Positions 35,491 to 59,918 of a stretch of DNA of 64,000 bases are shown here, piece after piece. The notes below the pieces were generated by a model. That model saw nothing but the letters and a program-made list of their open reading frames with translations, had not been told where the DNA came from and ran no database searches. The stretch's first letter is position 1; each line of letters begins with the position of its first letter. Both the position numbers and the translations under genes were made by a program. The DNA is from Rubellicoccus peritrichatus. GTDB lineage: Bacteria > Verrucomicrobiota > Verrucomicrobiia > Opitutales > Cerasicoccaceae. Location of the stretch: contig NZ_CP136920.1 of assembly GCF_033100135.1 (NCBI RefSeq), positions 1,488,001 through 1,552,000 on the forward strand, written 5' to 3'.

Positions 35491-37614
35491 ATGTGCTCAA
35501 AAACCATACATACTCTTAGCTTCTTGTTTGTTGCCACCTCCATTTATGCTCAAGGTGGCGCCATCTATTCAGTTCAGCAGTCACCGTGGTCACCCCCGGC
35601 CAGTCTCGAGAGGACGAGTGACGATAGCTTGCAGGCCGTTGACAGCATTACGGCAATCAACTTTACCTCGGAGGATCGCCAATGGATCATTGATGAATTG
35701 GCAGAGGTCGAGGAATCACTGATTGGAGACAGCTCAATCGCGGGACGACTCGCAGAGCGTTTTGCCGATTTCCCTCTGGTGATCAGCGAGACAACACTCG
35801 ATGGAGAAGTGGGAAGTGTGTCCAAACCGACCTCATCTCTGGGTGCCACGCATGTCCTCAATCGTTACCAGGGCTTGGTGGTGAACCGCTATACGGATGA
35901 TGAACTTGAGCATGCGAATCTGGCTCTTACGACTTTCGAGAAACGGCTCTCCGAAGCGATTGATCTTGCTGAGCCCAATGAGATCGAAGATTTGCCGATG
36001 CTCTTTAAGGCCTATACTCCCGATGGCAGTGAGTTGAAGTTGCTAAAGCTGACTCGCATTTTTGAAGATGGTTCGGATGGCGGTGAGCTTTCTGGTTTGG
36101 CCCAGGTGAATGTTATTTCGGCGTTATCAGTTACTGGCACCGGAGTGCTTGCCTTGGAATCTGAGACAGAGGTGATAGGTATGTCTATACCTCTGTCGGT
36201 GGCTAGTGACAATACTGAAGATTTTGGTGCTCTTGCGACTGATGGCCTTAGTATTGAATCTTATGCTGCAGGTGTCGTGGAGCGTTCGGATACTACCGAG
36301 CTCTTCGTTTGGTATTACACTGGCACCGACTCTTTTGACGAGGATGGATTCATCTTCTTTTCTTCTTCTGAAATCGATGATCTGGACTTCACGGATCGTG
36401 TGGTCGATTGGTCAGGGATTAAGGATAAGTTGAATGGAAGTGCTGCTGGTGTGTCTTCGATTGATTGTAAATACGATGCAGGTTTGGATCGTGTTTACTT
36501 GAGCCTGATTGTAAGGCGCGCTCTGGAGGGGGAAGACGATACTGCCGAGGGCAAAACGCCGGTTGCGTTTACGGCTTATGTTGATCTTGGGGACGATGAA
36601 CTATCTCTGACTCCAGTGCATCGTTTGGATCAGGCACCTGTCAAAATGACCAATGGCAAACACCATCTATCTTTGAATATCATCTCCGAGGCCGATCCCG
36701 AGGCCGACGTTTCTGAAGGTGGAGATTTGCCTGCGGGCACCGTTTTGATCAAGACGATTGCAGTTGATGATGACGGTGACAATATCGCCGATACCGTTCA
36801 ATTCTATCGCCTGGATGCGGATGGAGCTCAGCTCATCAGGAGCTTGCCCGAGGTGCCGGTTAAAACAGAGTCAACGGTTGGAGCCCAGCAGCTTGATGCG
36901 TTCAGCTTGCGGAATGCGGCAATCACCGTACCGACGCAATCCGACTCGTCCAGCGATGTTTTCTCCAGCTCATTGGTTGCATCCAGTGTGAGACGTGCAT
37001 CCAGCATCATCTCCATTGCATTCTCTGTTGCGATGGAGAAAGATCTCGCGGCTGCGAAAAAAAGTACTCCTTCTCCAAGCGATTGGGCCAGCACCTACAT
37101 CCAAATCATTGATGTGAATGGCGAAGATATCATTCCCGAAACAGAAGTGGAATTACCTGCCGGGTTTGAGACGATCGAAGCTCTACAGCTTGTTGAGGCT
37201 GAGCCGGATAGGTTTCATTTCGTCGCTTCCTTTCCATCAACTGGTGATGGTGGCCCCACAATTCGCACGACGACTTTTGATTTGTCCAACACCGGAGATA
37301 GTGCTTTGGCGGGTACTTCGCTTGGGGCTATCGAATCGGTTGCTGATAATTGGGTTGAGTCAAGCCGGTTCGGGTTTGCTTACATTCCGCCTGATTTTGA
37401 CCAGGGTAATCGTTGGGCTTATTTGCTTGATCTTGAATGGCTCTACCTCAGTGAAAATAAATGGGCGTATGACCATCGCTTCCAGGACTGGTGTTTCCTT
37501 AGCCCGACAAACTATCCCTGGATCTATTGCCTGATTAAAGCAGAGTGGGTCTTTCATGTTACCGGTTCGGGCAGGACTTTCTATTCCGAGAGCGAGGGCT
37601 TCTTCTCTGAGTAG
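35491..37614 (+). CDS. Large secreted protein, tandem paralogue A
   Basis: No named family; 707 residues with a signal peptide about 1-20. Paralogue of the following gene, with similarity over most of its length. Midway to the C-terminal third is DDDGDNIADTVQFYRLDADG, an acidic calcium-loop-like stretch. Its final ~70 residues are aromatic-rich (NRWAYLLDLEWLYLSENKWA, YPWIYCLIKAEWVFHV) and end GRTFYSESEGFFSE, identical to the end of paralogue B. The CxxCH motif of B is replaced here by SSLGATHVLN. It starts 219 bp after the divergent tgt gene. Likely a surface protein. Confidence 0.82.
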   Translation: MCSKTIHTLSFLFVATSIYAQGGAIYSVQQSPWSPPASLERTSDDSLQAVDSITAINFTSEDRQWIIDELAEVEESLIGDSSIAGRLAERFADFPLVISETTLDGEVGSVSKPTSSLGATHVLNRYQGLVVNRYTDDELEHANLALTTFEKRLSEAIDLAEPNEIEDLPMLFKAYTPDGSELKLLKLTRIFEDGSDGGELSGLAQVNVISALSVTGTGVLALESETEVIGMSIPLSVASDNTEDFGALATDGLSIESYAAGVVERSDTTELFVWYYTGTDSFDEDGFIFFSSSEIDDLDFTDRVVDWSGIKDKLNGSAAGVSSIDCKYDAGLDRVYLSLIVRRALEGEDDTAEGKTPVAFTAYVDLGDDELSLTPVHRLDQAPVKMTNGKHHLSLNIISEADPEADVSEGGDLPAGTVLIKTIAVDDDGDNIADTVQFYRLDADGAQLIRSLPEVPVKTESTVGAQQLDAFSLRNAAITVPTQSDSSSDVFSSSLVASSVRRASSIISIAFSVAMEKDLAAAKKSTPSPSDWASTYIQIIDVNGEDIIPETEVELPAGFETIEALQLVEAEPDRFHFVASFPSTGDGGPTIRTTTFDLSNTGDSALAGTSLGAIESVADNWVESSRFGFAYIPPDFDQGNRWAYLLDLEWLYLSENKWAYDHRFQDWCFLSPTNYPWIYCLIKAEWVFHVTGSGRTFYSESEGFFSE

Positions 37615-37786
37615 TGGTATCGACTCTGTGTTCCATACCTCCTTGAGAGGTTTACGGTAGTTCTGGCGCAACTTGAGTCATTCGCTTTGTTGTTCATGCC
37701 GAAATAATAGAGGCTCATCCTTCAGCTATTAGTTTAAGTAAAAAAGCTTATTTGACTTATTAAAATGGTATTATTAAGCTAATTTT

Positions 37787-39964
37787 ATGGAAACTATTAC
37801 TACTTCAATCCTATCCCGCCTCGCCCCATGTTTCTTACTGCTGCTGTTCCTCCCGTTATGCATCAGGGGGCAAACAGTGAACATCGATGCGGCTGGATGG
37901 AGTCCGCCTTATGATACGACAAATGACGATGATATCATTTCCGACATTTGGGGACTTGCAACAGTCGCCCTGACTGAAAAACAGAGAGCGGAGGTTTTTT
38001 GCCGCGAGATCAAACGGGCATCGTTCAGTACTATTGAGACACAGTCAGATCGGGCTGAAAGGTTAGTCGAACTTGACACGCGATTTGCCAACTACCCTCA
38101 TGTTATCACTATTGCTGAAGGCGATGGAAGTACGGCGCCTGAAAAGTTTGTAACGAGTGCCTCCTTTGTCAGTCCCAGCGTTATCTGTACGGAATGCCAT
38201 CGAGGTAATGATGCCTCAGACAGTACGACCAATTTAGGCCAGTCTGTTCAGGATTATGTGACCATGCGCGACGTGGTTCAGTCACACCTGGAAACGGCGG
38301 AAGCAGATGATGCCACGGATGTCATGGAGGATCAGCCCATGATCTTTGTCGATTATCCCGAAGGGAGTGATGAATATATCTACCTTCAGACTTTTCGACG
38401 GCAACTGTCAGCCGAGGCCGACTCGCCTTATGGGGTCGTCGTAGAATATACAGATCAGGATGGGACCTCTTCAGAGACGATTTTGAAAGTAAGCGACAGT
38501 GCGGGGGCGGCGCTTAACTCTTTGGAATCCGATGGTGAGTCAAGCAGTGGTATTACCGCTTATGCCGCTGGTATTATTAGGCGAAATCAACCAGTGGCAG
38601 ACTCTGATCTTGGGGATAAGGCCCAACTTGTTGTATGGTTGTACAAAAAATTAGGTCTAGCAGGTGAAGAGTCGGATGGACTGTCCGATGCCTCAGAGGG
38701 TGCTGTTGAGCTGCGAACTGCGGATTTCGGCTCCAATAGTTTCGTTCCATTTACCGCTGCCTTTGATGATGACCTCGTCGCAATGAACATCCGAGGTGCA
38801 GATGCCGTTACTTGTGTTTACGATCAGGAAATAGACCGCATTTACCTGGCTTTTGTCGCAGAGATTGGAAATGGCCTGACGGCTGCGGCTGACGATGAGG
38901 CGGCGAACTACAGGCTTGTGCAGGCCTATGTGGATTTAGCTGACGATGTCCCTCTTGATTTGAGTGAAATCCCGGACGGCGAGGTGCGGCAATTAACAAT
39001 CAAGGCGCTTCCGACGGTTGAAGCATTGCCGGCCAAAATGATTAATGGCATGTATCACATTTCCATGCATCTGCTGCCTTACGAGGAAGACTCTACATCG
39101 GAAGGCAGTACCGTATTGGCAGAGTTAGCCGGGGATGCAAAAAGACTTGTCATGGTTTATTCGACCGATGCGGATCAGGACGGTATTGCCGATCAACTAT
39201 CAGTCTATAGAACCGATGCTAAGGAAGCCGAGTTGATTCGGACTCTGCCCGAGATGAAAGCAGATGAAGGCGATTGTATTGGGCTCCTCGTAGCAGATGC
39301 ACTAACGCAGACTCAGGCAGAAGCATTAGGGCGGGTTGGGTTTTTCGCTTTGGATACGAAACCGTATTTCGTCACAACTGCTTTCGCAACCCAAAGGCTT
39401 GAGGGTTTTGGTGCCGCTGCTGTGGATGAAGATGCAACGCCCCAACTTCTGGTTAGTGCCATTGATGTGAACGGTGAAGACGTTGCAGAAACAACCAGGC
39501 TTGATTTGCCCTTGAATGCTATAACCATGACTGCGCTCGATTTATTCGCCGGTGAAAATGAAAAGCATCATTTGACCGTGGCCTTTAAGGGAGAGAATAC
39601 GACTTCGATTCACAGCCGAAGCTTTTCCGTCCTTTCCAGTGACGATCATCCTTTTGCGGAAACCTCGCTGGGCGCAACCGCATTCCTCAGGGAAAACTGG
39701 TACCAGTCGAATCTTTTTGGCGACGCATTTGTCCCATCTGATTTCGAGTCCGGAAATCGCTGGATCTACCTGCCGCTTCTTGTCGAGTGGCTTTACCTGA
39801 GCGATACGCAGTGGGTTTATGATCATGGTTTTCAGGATTGGTTATTTTTGAGCCGGACCCATTACCCATGGTTCTATCTTCTGGAAAAAGCCGAATGGCA
39901 TTTTCATTTCACTGACCTTGGCCGAACTTTCTATTCCGAGAGCGAGGGTTTCTTTTCCGAGTAA
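37787..39964 (+). CDS. Large secreted protein, tandem paralogue B with single CxxCH heme motif
   Basis: 725 residues; signal peptide about 1-28 (LLLLFLPLCIRG). Similar to the preceding gene in the N-terminal third, the acidic loop (DADQDGIADQLSVYRTD), and the aromatic tail ending GRTFYSESEGFFSE. Residues 134-138 are CTECH, a c-type heme attachment motif in a cysteine-poor exported protein. A single site does not prove heme binding. If real, it would need the cytochrome c maturation system. The 172 bp between paralogues contain no gene. Confidence 0.82.
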   Translation: METITTSILSRLAPCFLLLLFLPLCIRGQTVNIDAAGWSPPYDTTNDDDIISDIWGLATVALTEKQRAEVFCREIKRASFSTIETQSDRAERLVELDTRFANYPHVITIAEGDGSTAPEKFVTSASFVSPSVICTECHRGNDASDSTTNLGQSVQDYVTMRDVVQSHLETAEADDATDVMEDQPMIFVDYPEGSDEYIYLQTFRRQLSAEADSPYGVVVEYTDQDGTSSETILKVSDSAGAALNSLESDGESSSGITAYAAGIIRRNQPVADSDLGDKAQLVVWLYKKLGLAGEESDGLSDASEGAVELRTADFGSNSFVPFTAAFDDDLVAMNIRGADAVTCVYDQEIDRIYLAFVAEIGNGLTAAADDEAANYRLVQAYVDLADDVPLDLSEIPDGEVRQLTIKALPTVEALPAKMINGMYHISMHLLPYEEDSTSEGSTVLAELAGDAKRLVMVYSTDADQDGIADQLSVYRTDAKEAELIRTLPEMKADEGDCIGLLVADALTQTQAEALGRVGFFALDTKPYFVTTAFATQRLEGFGAAAVDEDATPQLLVSAIDVNGEDVAETTRLDLPLNAITMTALDLFAGENEKHHLTVAFKGENTTSIHSRSFSVLSSDDHPFAETSLGATAFLRENWYQSNLFGDAFVPSDFESGNRWIYLPLLVEWLYLSDTQWVYDHGFQDWLFLSRTHYPWFYLLEKAEWHFHFTDLGRTFYSESEGFFSE

Positions 39965-53716: not shown

Positions 53717-55249
53717 TTACCTTTTGTAGATAGAATCTTGAATGTTCATTGACTCCAGCGCTTTGCGGTCCACTTTTCCTGAGGCTCCCTTGGGTAGATT
53801 TGTGAGGAAAATGATTTCTTCAGGTAGTTTGTATTCTGCCAGATAATCTCGTGCGAAATCGCGTAAGGCTTTTGCTTTGATCTTTGATTCGCTTTTTATA
53901 ACGACATAGGCGCGGACACGTTGGCCGTAGGCTGAATCGGGAACGCCAACAACGCCGGCTTCGAGTACGTCAGGATGTTGAAAGAGTGCGCTTTCGACGT
54001 CATGCGGTACGATATTGGAGCCGCCGCGGACAATGATTTGTTTACTGCGCCCATGGAACCAGAGGAAGCCATCCTCATCAACCGATGCAAGATCACCTGT
54101 GCAAAACCATCCATCGCGAAAAGCTCTTTTCGTTGCTTCGGGATTTTCGAAGTAGGAGGACATGATGGTTTCGCTTTTCACCAGGACTTCACCTGTTTCG
54201 TCATTGGGAACGGGTTTCCCAGTTGTATCAGAAACAATGAAATCCACTCCATTGATAGCCTTGCCAATTGAGCCGGTCCGCTTGCCGTTACCAGCCGGAT
54301 TTGATGTTATCATCATGGCCTCGGTTGAAGAGTAGGCCTCCGTTAGTGCGATGCCAAAATGAGTCTGAAAGCGTTCATGCAAAGCAACGGGGACTGCGTC
54401 ACCGGAAGCGATGCAAAGGCGCAATTGGTTTTGCTGCAGGGCATGCTGGTTTTCGACTTCGTCAACAAGAAGTGCGTAGGTGGCAGGCAGGCCAAAGAGT
54501 AGTGTTATTTTTTCCTCCGAAATTAATCTGGCCGCCGCTTTCGCTTCAAACTCTTTCAATAATACAATGCGTGAACCGGCATAAAGCGTGGGCATGGTTC
54601 CGCGTAATAATGCGAAAGTGTGACACAATGAAATGTAAATCAATGCGGAGTCTCCTTGGATGTAGCCGTATTGTGCGTTTTGATTATGAACGTTTGCGAT
54701 GTGCTGCCGTCTTGCATGAAGCGCTCCCTTCGGGTCCCCGGTTGTTCCGGATGTAAAGAAAAGTGTCATCAAATGGTCATCGTCGAGTTCCGGAAAAACG
54801 ATGTCCCCAGTATTATCTTTAAGCAGTTCGTCAAAAGAACGAGCTCCCGGAAAATTTTGACAGTCTGTCGTGTAGCAATGATCAACTGAAAGGTTGCCTA
54901 AATGATCAAGAAGTGGCCGCAGCAGATCCTCTTCGGTTATGAGCAGCTTTGGCCTTCCTTTCTTGAGGAGGATCTCGGTCTCGACCGGAGCGAAGCGATT
55001 GTTGACTGGCATCGCAATGGCACCAATGCGAAAGCAGGCGTAGTAGGAAATAATGATCTCGAGGCAGTTGTGTAAATGAATCGCAACACGATCATTAGAC
55101 CCAATACCCAGTTTGATGAAATTCGCGGCGACTGTATCGACGATTTCGGCTAGTTCCGTAAAACTTACTCTCTTGTCGCCATCAACGATGGCCTCCTTGT
55201 CGCCATAAGCAGGATGAATCCTGAGGGGGTTGTGATCTGATGGATTCAT
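53717..55249 (-). CDS. Acyl-CoA synthetase/AMP-dependent ligase
   Basis: Class I adenylate-forming enzyme, 510 residues, activating a carboxylic acid with ATP and CoA. Motifs: LFFTSGTTGDPKGAL (P-loop), AYSSTEAMM, GWFCTGDLASVDEDGFLWFHGRSKQIIVRGG, PHDVESAL, and LPKGASGKVDRKAL with the catalytic Lys. No signal or membrane segment. Substrate choice cannot be read from the sequence; long- or medium-chain fatty acids are the usual substrates. Single gene on the minus strand, divergent from the 55462 set. Confidence 0.92.
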   Translation of the reverse strand: MNPSDHNPLRIHPAYGDKEAIVDGDKRVSFTELAEIVDTVAANFIKLGIGSNDRVAIHLHNCLEIIISYYACFRIGAIAMPVNNRFAPVETEILLKKGRPKLLITEEDLLRPLLDHLGNLSVDHCYTTDCQNFPGARSFDELLKDNTGDIVFPELDDDHLMTLFFTSGTTGDPKGALHARRQHIANVHNQNAQYGYIQGDSALIYISLCHTFALLRGTMPTLYAGSRIVLLKEFEAKAAARLISEEKITLLFGLPATYALLVDEVENQHALQQNQLRLCIASGDAVPVALHERFQTHFGIALTEAYSSTEAMMITSNPAGNGKRTGSIGKAINGVDFIVSDTTGKPVPNDETGEVLVKSETIMSSYFENPEATKRAFRDGWFCTGDLASVDEDGFLWFHGRSKQIIVRGGSNIVPHDVESALFQHPDVLEAGVVGVPDSAYGQRVRAYVVIKSESKIKAKALRDFARDYLAEYKLPEEIIFLTNLPKGASGKVDRKALESMNIQDSIYKR

Positions 55250-55461
55250 AAGCTGAAGTTTATGAGTGAATACCAGAAGTTTTGCCAGAGTGAATGTTGC
55301 AGAGTGTCAGCCTTTGGGCGGTTGAATCTACTGGAGTTTGAAAAGTATGGATTCACATTAATGTTACATTATTTATTTTCTATTGACATAAAAAATGCCT
55401 TTTTGATCATGATTTGAGTTTGAGCCTTACATTGTAAATAATCCTGTAAACGATACCAGCT

Positions 55462-55998
55462 ATGGATAATGATGATATTGTAAATGCGATTACTGTTCTG
55501 TTCACAGCTCCTACTGAAGCTGTTGTAGATGCTGCCTCTCATCAGCGTCGTATTTGGATTAAGTGGTTGAAGGACATTGACCGGCTTATCAACCCGCCCA
55601 CGGGTGTTGACAAACCATCGAAGGCGCAAGCTAACGAGATTATTCTTAGACACCTTGAGCTTGCTCCGGTTTGGAAAATGTCTGCTCAAATATCGATAGG
55701 TATCGGTATGCGTATTGCTTCCATTCGTCGTATGGAAGGAGGCATCAAGCTTGGTATCGGCACGAGCATGGTATCAGCATCGGGCAGTTTTGGCTTTATG
55801 AGCGAGAGTGCCTCGGAAAGCACCCTCCAGGCACGCGCGAATTACGCGATGTCCAATGAGCAGGAAGTGACATTAAAGGAATACCTTAATGATCTTGGGG
55901 TTGGGGTGACCGACCCGACGACTTTAACCAAGGCTATTGACAGACTGGCGGCAGCGACTGTCCCACTTCCATCCCTGGCTGAAGTAAAGAAATCATAG
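55462..55998 (+). CDS. Unknown protein 1 of a three-gene module
   Basis: 178 residues, no named family recognised. An N-terminal amphipathic helical part (DIVNAITVLFTAPTEAVVDA, WIKWLKDIDRLI) is followed by a beta-strand region with alternating pattern: SAQISIGIGMRIASIRRMEG, GIKLGIGTSMVSASGSFGFM and STLQARANYAMSNEQEVTLKE. No signal peptide, so probably cytoplasmic. It is 3 bp ahead of the next gene and opens a run of six plus-strand genes. The beta-region vaguely resembles the DUF2589 type, but not enough to claim it. Confidence 0.75.
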   Translation: MDNDDIVNAITVLFTAPTEAVVDAASHQRRIWIKWLKDIDRLINPPTGVDKPSKAQANEIILRHLELAPVWKMSAQISIGIGMRIASIRRMEGGIKLGIGTSMVSASGSFGFMSESASESTLQARANYAMSNEQEVTLKEYLNDLGVGVTDPTTLTKAIDRLAAATVPLPSLAEVKKS

Positions 55999-56001
55999 TA
56001 G

Positions 56002-56577
56002 ATGGCAAAAGATTCCAAGGTTATGTCCACCGATTATTCCAAGGCGATAACTCAGGCACTGAATAAGCTGCGTAATGAAGTGGGCGCAGACAATTCCCTG
56101 TCGAAGGACGAAAAGGAATCGTATAAAATGGTTATTTCGCGTATGCGAAAATTAGCCCGAGATGAAGCCAGTGGTGAATTGCCCGATGAGGCCAAGTTGC
56201 CTTCAGTTGATACATTTTTGATTGCACTGCAAAAATCAATAAGTCGGGTGAGTCGCGATTCAGCCGAGGTTGCTCCGGATCAGGCGCGTTCCTTGATCAG
56301 TGGCTCTGTTGCATTTGATGTTTCCTTGCAATGTGATCTTGAGCCGTTGTCGCAGAAATTATATCTTACTAGTGGAGATGACGGGTATCCGCTCAAGCTC
56401 GTTGGGAATATTAATACAGATGTTGATATTGATGTTTACCAACCTGTTGAAGAAGAAACAGAGAATGCGAACGTAAGCCCGGACTCGAAGGAGAAAGATA
56501 CGAATGCCAAACGGACCAAAAAGACCGCCAAAAAGAAAAAAACTGCAGTCAAAAAGACACACGGAAGGAAAAGTTGA
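56002..56577 (+). CDS. Unknown protein 2 of a three-gene module, Lys-rich tail
   Basis: 191 residues. N-terminal helices (AITQALNKLRNEVGADNSLS, YKMVISRMRKLARDEASG), a beta-rich middle (SGSVAFDVSLQCDLEPLSQK then LKLVGNINTDVDIDVYQPV), an acidic linker, and a strongly basic tail: KRTKKTAKKKKTAVKKTHGR. Such tails bind nucleic acid or acidic partners in other proteins (histone H1-like), but no fold is recognised. It follows gene 1 by 3 bp; the third gene starts 4 bp after its stop. Confidence 0.75.
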   Translation: MAKDSKVMSTDYSKAITQALNKLRNEVGADNSLSKDEKESYKMVISRMRKLARDEASGELPDEAKLPSVDTFLIALQKSISRVSRDSAEVAPDQARSLISGSVAFDVSLQCDLEPLSQKLYLTSGDDGYPLKLVGNINTDVDIDVYQPVEEETENANVSPDSKEKDTNAKRTKKTAKKKKTAVKKTHGRKS

Positions 56578-56581
56578 GGGT

Positions 56582-56848
56582 ATGGCTGTGCAGAAAGCAG
56601 AAGTTCCGGGGACTGAAATATCGACGATCTTTGATCAGACAATCAGTGACGTTATTGCCGCCGGCCGAAAGAACAGTGATTTCAACGGTGTCGTTGATAT
56701 CGGGATTACTTTTCGAAATGTGCATATTGATAAATCCGGAGTCCTCGCTACGATTTTTGGTCGCCAGAATGGTGATGAATCTTCGGTTGAGGTTAAGCTC
56801 GCGACGAGGATCAATCTTGAAGATATCAAGAATGGCGGCAGCGAGTAG
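56582..56848 (+). CDS. Unknown protein 3 of a three-gene module
   Basis: 88 residues from the ATG at 56582 with GAGGG immediately upstream; an earlier in-frame ATG at 56504 lies inside gene 2 and is unlikely. One helix (ISTIFDQTISDVIAAGRKN) and then alternating strands: GVVDIGITFRNVHIDKSGVL, ATIFGRQNGDESSVEVKLAT. The helix-then-beta layout matches genes 1 and 2 in miniature, so the three may form one complex. Function unknown. Confidence 0.7.
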   Translation: MAVQKAEVPGTEISTIFDQTISDVIAAGRKNSDFNGVVDIGITFRNVHIDKSGVLATIFGRQNGDESSVEVKLATRINLEDIKNGGSE

Positions 56849-56925
56849 CTGCTGGTTTGGGTCGCAACTATCGCAGTTCTTTGCGATTGCCAGCCTTGGC
56901 CTGTTCTGTCGAAGTCAGGGCACGC

Positions 56926-58239
56926 TTGAAGACTGAAGAAAAAAGCAATGCCATCAACGCCTCGGGCGAGACCAGCTGGTATCCGACGGATAACGCAGGG
57001 AAGATTTTTGCGTCACTTAATTCGTGGCAACTGCAATCGACATTCCGCGTGTCAGCCGGGCTTAAGCAGCACGTGCAGATTGAGCGGCTGGAAAGCGCGC
57101 TTGAACGGACTGTTCGGCGTTTCCCTTTGTTTCAGACACGGGTTAAGCCAGGCTTTTTCTGGTATTACTTCGAACCGAATGGAGCGACTCCACCCATACA
57201 GCCCGACTCGAAATTTCCACTGGGCGAAGCGTTTTCCGGAAAGGGCAGGGGGCATCCGTGGCGAATTCGAGTGTATCACCGAACCGTGGCACTTGATTGT
57301 GCCCATGTTTTGACGGATGGGTCCGGTGCACTTACTTTTCTTAATACGCTGCTTGCTGAATACTTAAACTATCAGGGGCCGCGAGATCCGGCAGTTGGTC
57401 TTCTGGATGTTGAGGAAAGGCCACACCCGGAAGAACTGGAGAATGCTTTTCCCAAACAATTTCAGTCGGGGCTTCCGGCTTTTAAACATGAGTCCCGTGC
57501 GTGCCAGTTATCCTTGGATGCCGACAAACCTGGTGTTCGGCATGTGACATGCGGCCGGGTTTCGGCTTCGCTTCTGCGGGAAAAGGCCAAGGTAGCTGGA
57601 GCCAGTGTCGGCGAATACCTGAACGCAGCTTACCTGGAAGCCCTGCAAGGCTCTGTGTTGGAAAAGACAAATGGCGCTTTGCATAAAGTGAGTGGACCGA
57701 TTCGCATTGATGTTCCGGTCAACCTGCGCCCGGTGTTCCCATCGAGAAGTCTGCGCAATTTTTTCCTGACCGTTTTTGTGGCGATTGACCCGCGCCTTGG
57801 TGAATGGTCGTTTGAGGAGATTTTGGAAGCCGTTCATCACCAAATGCGATTGCAGCGCAGCCCACGGCTTTATCGCCAGATCATTTCGCGCAATGTCGGT
57901 TCGGAGCGGAGTTTCTTCCTGCGTCACCTGCCACTGGCGGTAAAGAATATGTTAATGCCGTGGATTTTCCAAAAATGGAATCTCCGCTGGACGACCAGCA
58001 GTCTGTCGAATCTGGGTATGCTCAAACTGCCAGTTGAAATGGCTGATGGGATTGAACGCTTTGATATGCTGCCAACCCATCCGGCTTCACGCAGTATTGG
58101 TTGTGGTGTGATTGGCTTTGGTGACAAGATCAGCATCACATTTAACCGGACAGCGATTGAACCCATCGTGGAGCGTCTTTTCTTTCGTGGATTACGGAAC
58201 AAAGGTATTCCTGTTTCGATCGAAACGAATGAGGGTTAG
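56926..58239 (+). CDS. Condensation-type acyltransferase (alcohol acetyltransferase-like)
   Basis: 437 residues from the TTG at 56926, chosen for AGGG seven bases upstream; TTG 56857 is a longer option. The fold is that of the CoA-dependent acyltransferase/condensation superfamily: the catalytic motif is in DCAHVLTDGSGALTFLNTLL (HxxxDG), and GPIRIDVPVNLRPVFPSRSL with SNLGMLKLP are the second-lobe marks. Together with the DUF6320-like membrane protein 2 bp downstream it forms a pair known from other bacteria. It probably moves an acyl group to an alcohol, lipid or glycan; the substrate is unknown. Confidence 0.85.
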   Translation: MKTEEKSNAINASGETSWYPTDNAGKIFASLNSWQLQSTFRVSAGLKQHVQIERLESALERTVRRFPLFQTRVKPGFFWYYFEPNGATPPIQPDSKFPLGEAFSGKGRGHPWRIRVYHRTVALDCAHVLTDGSGALTFLNTLLAEYLNYQGPRDPAVGLLDVEERPHPEELENAFPKQFQSGLPAFKHESRACQLSLDADKPGVRHVTCGRVSASLLREKAKVAGASVGEYLNAAYLEALQGSVLEKTNGALHKVSGPIRIDVPVNLRPVFPSRSLRNFFLTVFVAIDPRLGEWSFEEILEAVHHQMRLQRSPRLYRQIISRNVGSERSFFLRHLPLAVKNMLMPWIFQKWNLRWTTSSLSNLGMLKLPVEMADGIERFDMLPTHPASRSIGCGVIGFGDKISITFNRTAIEPIVERLFFRGLRNKGIPVSIETNEG

Positions 58240-58241
58240 GC

Positions 58242-58949
58242 ATGGCTTATTGTTCTGAATGTGGAATCGAAGTAACGACAGAGCGGGAAAATTGTCCGCT
58301 TTGTGGCGCAAAGTTGCAGTCCGCCGCACCGGTTTTTGATTCGGTATTCCCCGTTGAGGTCCGTCCCGCAGCTGTTGAGCCATTGAGTTGGTTTGAGATC
58401 CGAAGAATCCTCTTTGGAACCTTGAGTTTCATTTTCGCCCTTGGGATTATTAGTGTGTTGGTCGTCAATCTCACGCAAAACGGCACTTTAAACTGGGCGC
58501 GTTATGCTGTGGTTTCATTGGCGGTAGGCTGGTCTGTGCTTGGGCTTGGGCTTTATCTTTATTCTAGGCCGATGGCTCTGCTCTGGCGAGCAGCCGGGGC
58601 TGTCACTTTTCTCCTGATCCTGCTGGATATCTTTTATGAAGGCGTTTCCTGGTCGGTTACCCTGGCTTTGCCCATCATATTATTGGTGTTGAGCTTGGCA
58701 TCCTGGCTTTGGTGGTTATTTCAGGTCGCCCGTGCGCATTGGGCCAGTGCGGTAGCCTCCATTCTGGCGGCGATTGCCGTATTGTGCTTCGGTGTGAATT
58801 TCATTGTAGATCTCTACACTGAAGGATCGCTTTTGCCAACTTGGTCTGCCATTGTCGCTCTTTCTCTTGGTCCACCTTTCCTTTTTCTCATTTATATACG
58901 TTATCGCTTAAGCAAAACGGTTGACCTTCCGAAAGTGTTTCACCGATGA
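58242..58949 (+). CDS. DUF6320-like membrane protein with N-terminal zinc ribbon
   Basis: 235 residues. A zinc ribbon at about 4-22 (CSECGIEVTTERENCPLCG: CxxC...CxxC), a linker, then about six membrane helices between 50 and 225. This matches the DUF6320 layout, found beside acyltransferases like the upstream gene (2 bp away). It may anchor or regulate that enzyme at the membrane; no catalytic residues are seen. Next gene starts 15 bp later. Confidence 0.85.
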   Translation: MAYCSECGIEVTTERENCPLCGAKLQSAAPVFDSVFPVEVRPAAVEPLSWFEIRRILFGTLSFIFALGIISVLVVNLTQNGTLNWARYAVVSLAVGWSVLGLGLYLYSRPMALLWRAAGAVTFLLILLDIFYEGVSWSVTLALPIILLVLSLASWLWWLFQVARAHWASAVASILAAIAVLCFGVNFIVDLYTEGSLLPTWSAIVALSLGPPFLFLIYIRYRLSKTVDLPKVFHR

Positions 58950-58964
58950 TCCGCGTCAACAACC

Positions 58965-59918
58965 ATGGCTGAAAAACCAATAGAGCGCCATTATTACGTC
59001 CGTAGTCTGGATTTCCGGGATTTCTGGGACATCTGTGGCCATTTTCAACGATCCCATCCGTCTCTGCCTGATATTCGTTATAGCATCGACGGGCCAGATG
59101 GCCGTATTATTGATCGAGAGATCGATGTGGCCTCAATTCTCCGGAAGCTGGGCAGCGATCAGAAGGATGTCTCTTTCCAGGCTGAACTGACTGATGATGC
59201 TGATGGCGGCTGGAAAAAGGCGGTCCTGTCTTACCGTTCCAAGGCCGAAGATGCTTCGAAGGAAGGGCTTAGCTTTCTCAGTCCCGGTGTTGATAAGCTG
59301 GCTCTGGCGGAGTTCGAAGAAGTGATATTTGACCAGTATGATCTCCCTGAGGAGGACACAGATCAGGTGCAATTTGGACATCCCTGCGAGATGCTGGCCG
59401 CTGTGCTGGATATGCGGGGCTTTTCGTCTTTTTGTGAAAAACCGAATATCGAGTCTCCATACATTTGTGGGTTGATGTATTCTTTTTATAAAATGGCAGT
59501 CCGTGGCTTTAAGCACTTCCCGGCTGACATGGTTAAGTTCACCGGTGATGGCTTGGTTGCTGTCTGGGAAACTACGGTCGAGACACGCCAGATGGCAATT
59601 GAGGCCTGTCTGCAGGGCGCAATGGAAATTGATGCCAAGTGGCAGGTTGGCCGCCGTCGCCCACAGTTCAGCCATGGTGCGCCGGATAGCATCGGAGTGG
59701 GTATCTCCTTTGGTCTTGGCAGTCGTGTGCCTGATGTTTCGGACTACATTGGCCGTCCTATCAATGTGGCAAGTCGACTTTGCAATGCCTGCCCTGGTGG
59801 AGATCTCATCGTCGACAAATCCGTTCCGGGAATCGGGGATGACATTCGCAAAGAAGACACATCCGTCCATGTGAAGTCTTTCGGGCGCTACTATGTCTGG
59901 CGCATCCGGGGCATCTGA
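58965..59918 (+). CDS. Class III adenylate/guanylate cyclase domain protein
   Basis: 317 residues. An unrecognised N-terminal domain (about 1-130, possibly sensory) precedes a complete class III cyclase domain (about 140-310). Metal Asp residues are in AAVLDMRGFSSF and MVKFTGDGLVAVWE (with the base-reading Lys of VKFTGD); DYIGRPINVASRL gives the second base-reading Asp and the transition-state Asn and Arg. All expected residues are present, so cAMP or cGMP production is likely. No membrane segment. It lies 15 bp after the DUF6320 gene, so it may share its transcript. Confidence 0.88.
   Translation: MAEKPIERHYYVRSLDFRDFWDICGHFQRSHPSLPDIRYSIDGPDGRIIDREIDVASILRKLGSDQKDVSFQAELTDDADGGWKKAVLSYRSKAEDASKEGLSFLSPGVDKLALAEFEEVIFDQYDLPEEDTDQVQFGHPCEMLAAVLDMRGFSSFCEKPNIESPYICGLMYSFYKMAVRGFKHFPADMVKFTGDGLVAVWETTVETRQMAIEACLQGAMEIDAKWQVGRRRPQFSHGAPDSIGVGISFGLGSRVPDVSDYIGRPINVASRLCNACPGGDLIVDKSVPGIGDDIRKEDTSVHVKSFGRYYVWRIRGI

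Follow-up and report, generated by a model that had tools for sequence, protein, structure and literature searches.

Three short co-directional genes of Rubellicoccus peritrichatus, situated within the window (the whole stretch of 64,000 nucleotides analyzed here), constitute a real module that is conserved far beyond chance, and not a random run of open reading frames. The cassette is rare and intact, its genes stay together, and the product of its first gene is probably a divergent, remote relative of the DUF2589 proteins (PF11655), although it is not a member of this family by Pfam's own rule. The three genes possibly encode the subunits of a small cytosolic assembly, a reading that we favor tentatively and consider below together with its alternatives.

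Gene Organization and Genomic Context

The divergent DUF2589-like gene 1 (55462..55998, + strand; 178 amino acids) is followed after 3 bp by gene 2 (56002..56577, + strand; 191 amino acids) and, after a further 4 bp, by gene 3 (56582..56848, + strand; 88 amino acids), an open reading frame recognized by reading the sequence. These coordinates agree with the original prediction, which had described three short genes of just these lengths with 3-4 bp spacing. The ATG at position 56582 yields the 88-residue form of the gene 3 product, while the same frame is open from an ATG at position 56504, which would yield a protein of 114 amino acids.

The module is flanked on one side by a divergently transcribed gene for an AMP-binding acyl-CoA synthetase (53717-55249, - strand). 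The gap separating this gene from gene 1 contains a candidate sigma-70-like promoter (TTGACA-16-GATCAT; 55383..55410, + strand), called from its agreement with the consensus alone in a region that holds seven promoter-like matches against 2.5 expected in shuffled sequences. Directly downstream of gene 3 lies a pair of acyltransferase-like and DUF6320 genes (56857-58949, + strand), the first of which weakly matches PF07247 and has nearby in-frame start codons that are all TTG. This pair is not found 3' of the module in either of the two other genomes that carry it (see below). The host genome of the window (G000) is a single 5.8-Mb contig; tRNA genes are absent from the window, and a search of the module region against Rfam gave nothing.

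Two further observations concern the surroundings. A 317-amino-acid protein (58965-59918, + strand) carries the motifs LDMRGFSSF and KFTGDGLVAVW, which we take to resemble the core of class III nucleotide cyclases; Pfam gives nothing for this protein at an E value of 1 or better. At 35491-39964 (+ strand), two adjacent genes encode paralogue-like proteins of 707 and 725 amino acids, both with a C-terminal motif that ends in GRTFYSESEGFFSE.

Distribution and Co-Conservation of the Cassette

When 132 genomes of the order were searched at the protein level, a gene 1 homologue (E 1.9e-23) emerged in G117, a metagenome-assembled genome (contig JAUIHT010000010.1) named Verrucomicrobiia bacterium that belongs to the family of the window organism but to another genus. 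The two open reading frames that follow it encode homologues of gene 2 (about 36% identity) and gene 3 (32%). Each of the three genes occurs in the same two of these 132 genomes, G000 and G117, as assessed for genes 2 and 3 with profiles. A third copy was found by a tblastn search of plasmids on a 709-kb replicon (NZ_CP088082.1) of the betaproteobacterium Ideonella dechloratans, where genes 1, 2 and 3 correspond, in this order, to WP_151122339, WP_151122338 and WP_151122337; their products are 38%, 38% and 21% identical to the respective window proteins. Overall, the gene 1 homologues are 34-38% identical and the gene 2 homologues, which have the same neighbors throughout, 37-38%. One gene order is thus kept in three genomes from two phyla, with an intergenic spacing of 6 and 29 bp in G117 and of 2 bp and a 4-bp overlap in Ideonella.

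The proposal that these genes form an unrecognized module therefore withstood a check for co-conservation: their joint presence or absence in 132 genomes, together with their fixed order across two phyla, argues that their products act together. Widening the search to samples of the phylum (387 genomes) and the class (384 genomes) added no convincing member to G000 and G117; a short match in G539 (E 7e-4), found in the phylum, class and order sample, lies inside an open frame of 2395 codons. When GTDB contigs were scanned twice, the G117 assembly was again the sole module match. The cassette has probably acquired this distribution by moving between phyla.

Properties of the Encoded Proteins

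The three proteins had been predicted to begin with amphipathic helices and to end in alternating strands. AlphaFold2 models of the gene 1 and gene 3 products, built from two sequences each, reproduce this helix-then-strand layout (helices at residues 3-43 and 54-67, then strands, for gene 1; a helix at 13-30 and strands at 37-47 and 69-78 for gene 3), but they do so with low confidence, the mean pLDDT values being just 47 and 64.5, respectively. As for the amphipathic character, it stands for the helix at residue 30 of the window gene 1 protein, whose hydrophobic moment is reached by none of 300 shuffled sequences, and for a few other segments, while most helices and strands fall within the shuffle range. 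The absence of signal peptides was borne out: the highest 19-residue Kyte-Doolittle mean across the nine module proteins is 1.42, and since none of them has a strongly hydrophobic stretch, neither a signal peptide nor a transmembrane helix is apparent.

Several segments of these proteins are evolutionarily conserved. The N-terminal helix of the gene 1 product, which precedes the strands, carries the motif LFxAPxEAVVDA, and the positions LF.AP..A.V.A....R.IW..W, APV, MR.AS, GG and SG are invariant across the three lineages. Gene 2 has the conserved core L(I/L)ALQKxxSRxS...LIxGxVxF..., with L.ALQK..SR.S....A and A..LI.G.V.F invariant across the same lineages, and the gene 3 proteins share a conserved C-terminal S.E..L.TR.

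Searches of Pfam, NCBIfam, PHROGs, PADLOC and the PDB sequences yielded nothing significant for the module proteins, so that the claim that they belong to no named family holds as far as these libraries go; it has to be qualified for gene 1 in view of its probable remote relationship to DUF2589. For genes 2 and 3, no link to any family could be established, and fold searches with gene 3 gave no match better than E 0.2. Flagellin-like PDB folds matched by gene 1 (Z 6.7; model pLDDT 47) were rejected, as models without a clear match score equally high.

Relationship of Gene 1 to DUF2589

The likeness of gene 1 to DUF2589 was put to profile comparison with sequences drawn from Verrucomicrobiota, plasmids, a phage-labelled faecal contig and IMG/VR. 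Within Verrucomicrobiota, PF11655 members occur in 11 of 387 genomes, 10 of them over the cut-off. When a profile of three gene 1 sequences was compared by hhalign with one of ten DUF2589 sequences, a global score of 27.0 (E 4e-5) was obtained over 153 columns, in an alignment that pairs the N-terminal helices and then the strand regions in a co-linear fashion. The highest global score in 150 shuffles was 20.5, and a reversed profile scored 5.8. The local score of 25.7 was exceeded by one block shuffle (29.6); hence, the N-terminal motif supplies part of the DUF2589 signal.

The second line of evidence comes from a search of 2611 open reading frames with a hidden Markov model of gene 1, the best non-self matches of which were two DUF2589 proteins (18.4 and 13.6 bits); the better-scoring one, from locus L039, is absent from the ten-sequence DUF2589 alignment. 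The best DUF2589 score reached by 20 block-shuffled gene 1 models was 10.4 bits. A test based on the rank of DUF2589 proteins in these lists (AUC 0.85-0.89) was dropped, because block-shuffled models reach 0.66-0.93; ranks are thus largely compositional, and the absolute score of gene 1 alone survives this control.

The gene 1 proteins fall far under the Pfam gathering cut-off of 23 bits, so that hmmscan reports no PF11655 match for them, and the Pfam model has no match anywhere in the genome from which the window derives. In the reverse search with DUF2589 profiles, the gene 1 homologues appeared at E 0.19 or worse. The signal for genes 2 and 3 did not rise above that of shuffled sequences, and a reciprocal best rank between gene 3 and a second DUF2589 family, being inside the shuffle range, was discarded. 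Taken from the three available gene 1 sequences, we regard these comparisons as moderate evidence for a co-linear similarity between gene 1 and DUF2589.

DUF2589 Cassettes and Their Muramidase Neighbors

DUF2589 genes occur in runs of small genes, together with a second DUF2589 gene, a gene for a partner of 230-305 amino acids, and one for either a protein of about 91 amino acids or a 76-amino-acid zinc ribbon; examples are found in G230 (putatively Akkermansia-like), on Vibrio tubiashii pFP31 and Burkholderia stagnalis plas1, and in Archaeoglobus fulgidus (AF0414-AF0417). Like the module, these cassettes consist of co-directional small genes without recognized enzyme domains, and their DUF2589 proteins, like that of gene 1, would comprise a helix with a (G/A)PLxAxxxAQ-like motif, a strand-rich part and a C-terminal helix. 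The module differs from them in that its gene 1 falls under the family cut-off and in that the usual partners are missing; genes 2 and 3 gave no match above background to profiles of these partners.

A single passing mention of DUF2589 was found among 5.39 million open papers, in a study reporting that the A. fulgidus cassette is up-regulated on lactate (PMC3949148). Genes for LytTR regulators lie directly upstream of the DUF2589 cassettes of G230 (L029:3020-3505) and of a putatively Bacteroides-like IMG/VR contig (L038:641-1093). At L030:4589-6298 (- strand), two tandem DUF2589 genes encode closely similar products, which suggests a duplication within that cassette.

A feature common to several DUF2589 cassettes and the Ideonella copy of the module is an adjoining gene for a phage-type muramidase. 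In Ideonella, a GH19-type enzyme (PF00182 and PG_binding_1; L007:11179-11979) without an obvious signal peptide is encoded 21 bp upstream of the module. Four DUF2589 cassettes adjoin muramidases of different families (L033:7554-8000, L035:8796-9398, L037:3215-4015 and L039:5785-6321), namely PF00959 in B. stagnalis, PF11860 in Deltaproteobacteria bacterium Smac51 and on the faecal contig MT839761, and PF05838 on an IMG/VR contig. With that of Ideonella, the muramidases represent four unrelated Pfam families. Relatives of these enzymes were detected neither in the window, nor in the 38 kb that surround the G117 module, nor in the 20-33 kb searched about the verrucomicrobial DUF2589 cassettes. 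Given a small sample that is in part of viral origin, we treat the muramidase link as a lead.

Possible Function of the Module

Since neither a known enzyme family nor a catalytic motif was recognized, the products of the module probably have a structural or adaptor role and not an enzymatic one. If gene 1 is a distant relative of DUF2589, the cassette would probably build a multi-protein assembly. The lack of enzyme domains, the absence of an apparent export signal, the fixed gene order and the strict co-occurrence are most simply read as pointing to a cytosolic hetero-oligomer. We thus tentatively prefer, at somewhat less than even chances, the view that the three genes form one functional cassette for a small, soluble assembly in which the DUF2589-like gene 1 protein is joined by the gene 2 and gene 3 products as partners. 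In such a complex, which we infer to be physical and soluble, the subunits would pair via their N-terminal helices and the strand parts would form its packed body. In muramidase-bearing lineages (Ideonella and several of those with DUF2589 cassettes), deployment of the assembly and opening of the cell wall might, speculatively, be coupled; as neither verrucomicrobial copy lies near a muramidase of these families, such a coupling cannot be general.

The cassette might instead serve a conflict (defence) system as its adaptor module, with gene 3 as a remote Trypco2-type adaptor that recruits a peptidase or another effector. Trypco2 (PF19631) is likewise a small protein with a helix followed by strands, and it has been described next to trypsin-like peptidases within conflict systems of the vWA-MoxR-VMAP kind (PMC7159879). 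A weak match to it was obtained with the gene 3 product of Ideonella (E 0.18, 12.5 bits, under the curated cut-off of 24.2), which is only a lead, and the cassette is patchy across phyla. However, Trypco2 does not match the gene 3 protein of the window or that of G117, or anything else in the window's genome, a tblastn search of plasmids revealed no homologues of it, and PADLOC recognizes none of the window proteins. Furthermore, genes for trypsin-like and caspase peptidases, MoxR ATPases and vWA proteins are all lacking among the annotated Ideonella neighbors, and no such partner was recognized on reading the open reading frames of the window and of G117, where some of the neighbors were scanned. 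We consider this explanation unlikely.

Improbable, too, is that the module is the relic of a prophage or another mobile element, that is, a leftover set of small virion or lysis genes with the Ideonella muramidase as the matching endolysin. The position of this enzyme, the similar muramidases beside DUF2589 cassettes, some of them on viral-labelled contigs, and the patchy distribution would all fit such an origin. Yet 50,697 phage records, pattern scans of IMG/VR and PHROGs all failed to yield a match to the module, its genes have stayed intact and together, at about 35% identity, amid unrelated neighbors, and integrase or phage genes were not recognized nearby.

The nucleic-acid-associated assembly envisaged originally, here taken to make its contact through the Lys-rich end of the gene 2 protein, is very improbable, because this C-terminal tail (about residues 166-191) is present in the window genome but missing from both homologues, the G117 protein having a short Lys-rich N-terminal end instead and the Ideonella protein neither extension, while nucleic-acid-binding families gave no significant match to the module proteins and the net charge of all nine lies between -7 and +2.

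Returning to the hetero-oligomeric assembly, a wider and in our estimate rather doubtful extension is that the module belongs, as one branch beside the DUF2589 cassettes, to a single hitherto undescribed class of assemblies, composed of small helix-plus-strand proteins produced together in the cytosol and accompanied in many lineages by an interchangeable, wall-opening phage-type muramidase for release or deployment. If true, this shared class would be a non-phage counterpart of a lysis-released particle.

DUF2589 spans bacteria and archaea and is nevertheless barely mentioned in the open papers searched. As a minimal relative of three genes, strictly co-conserved across phyla, the module offers a compact system in which the function of such cassettes can be probed. 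Should the repeated presence of muramidases of unrelated families beside these cassettes be upheld in a larger sample, wall opening would be indicated as a part of their function, and this could be put to the test.
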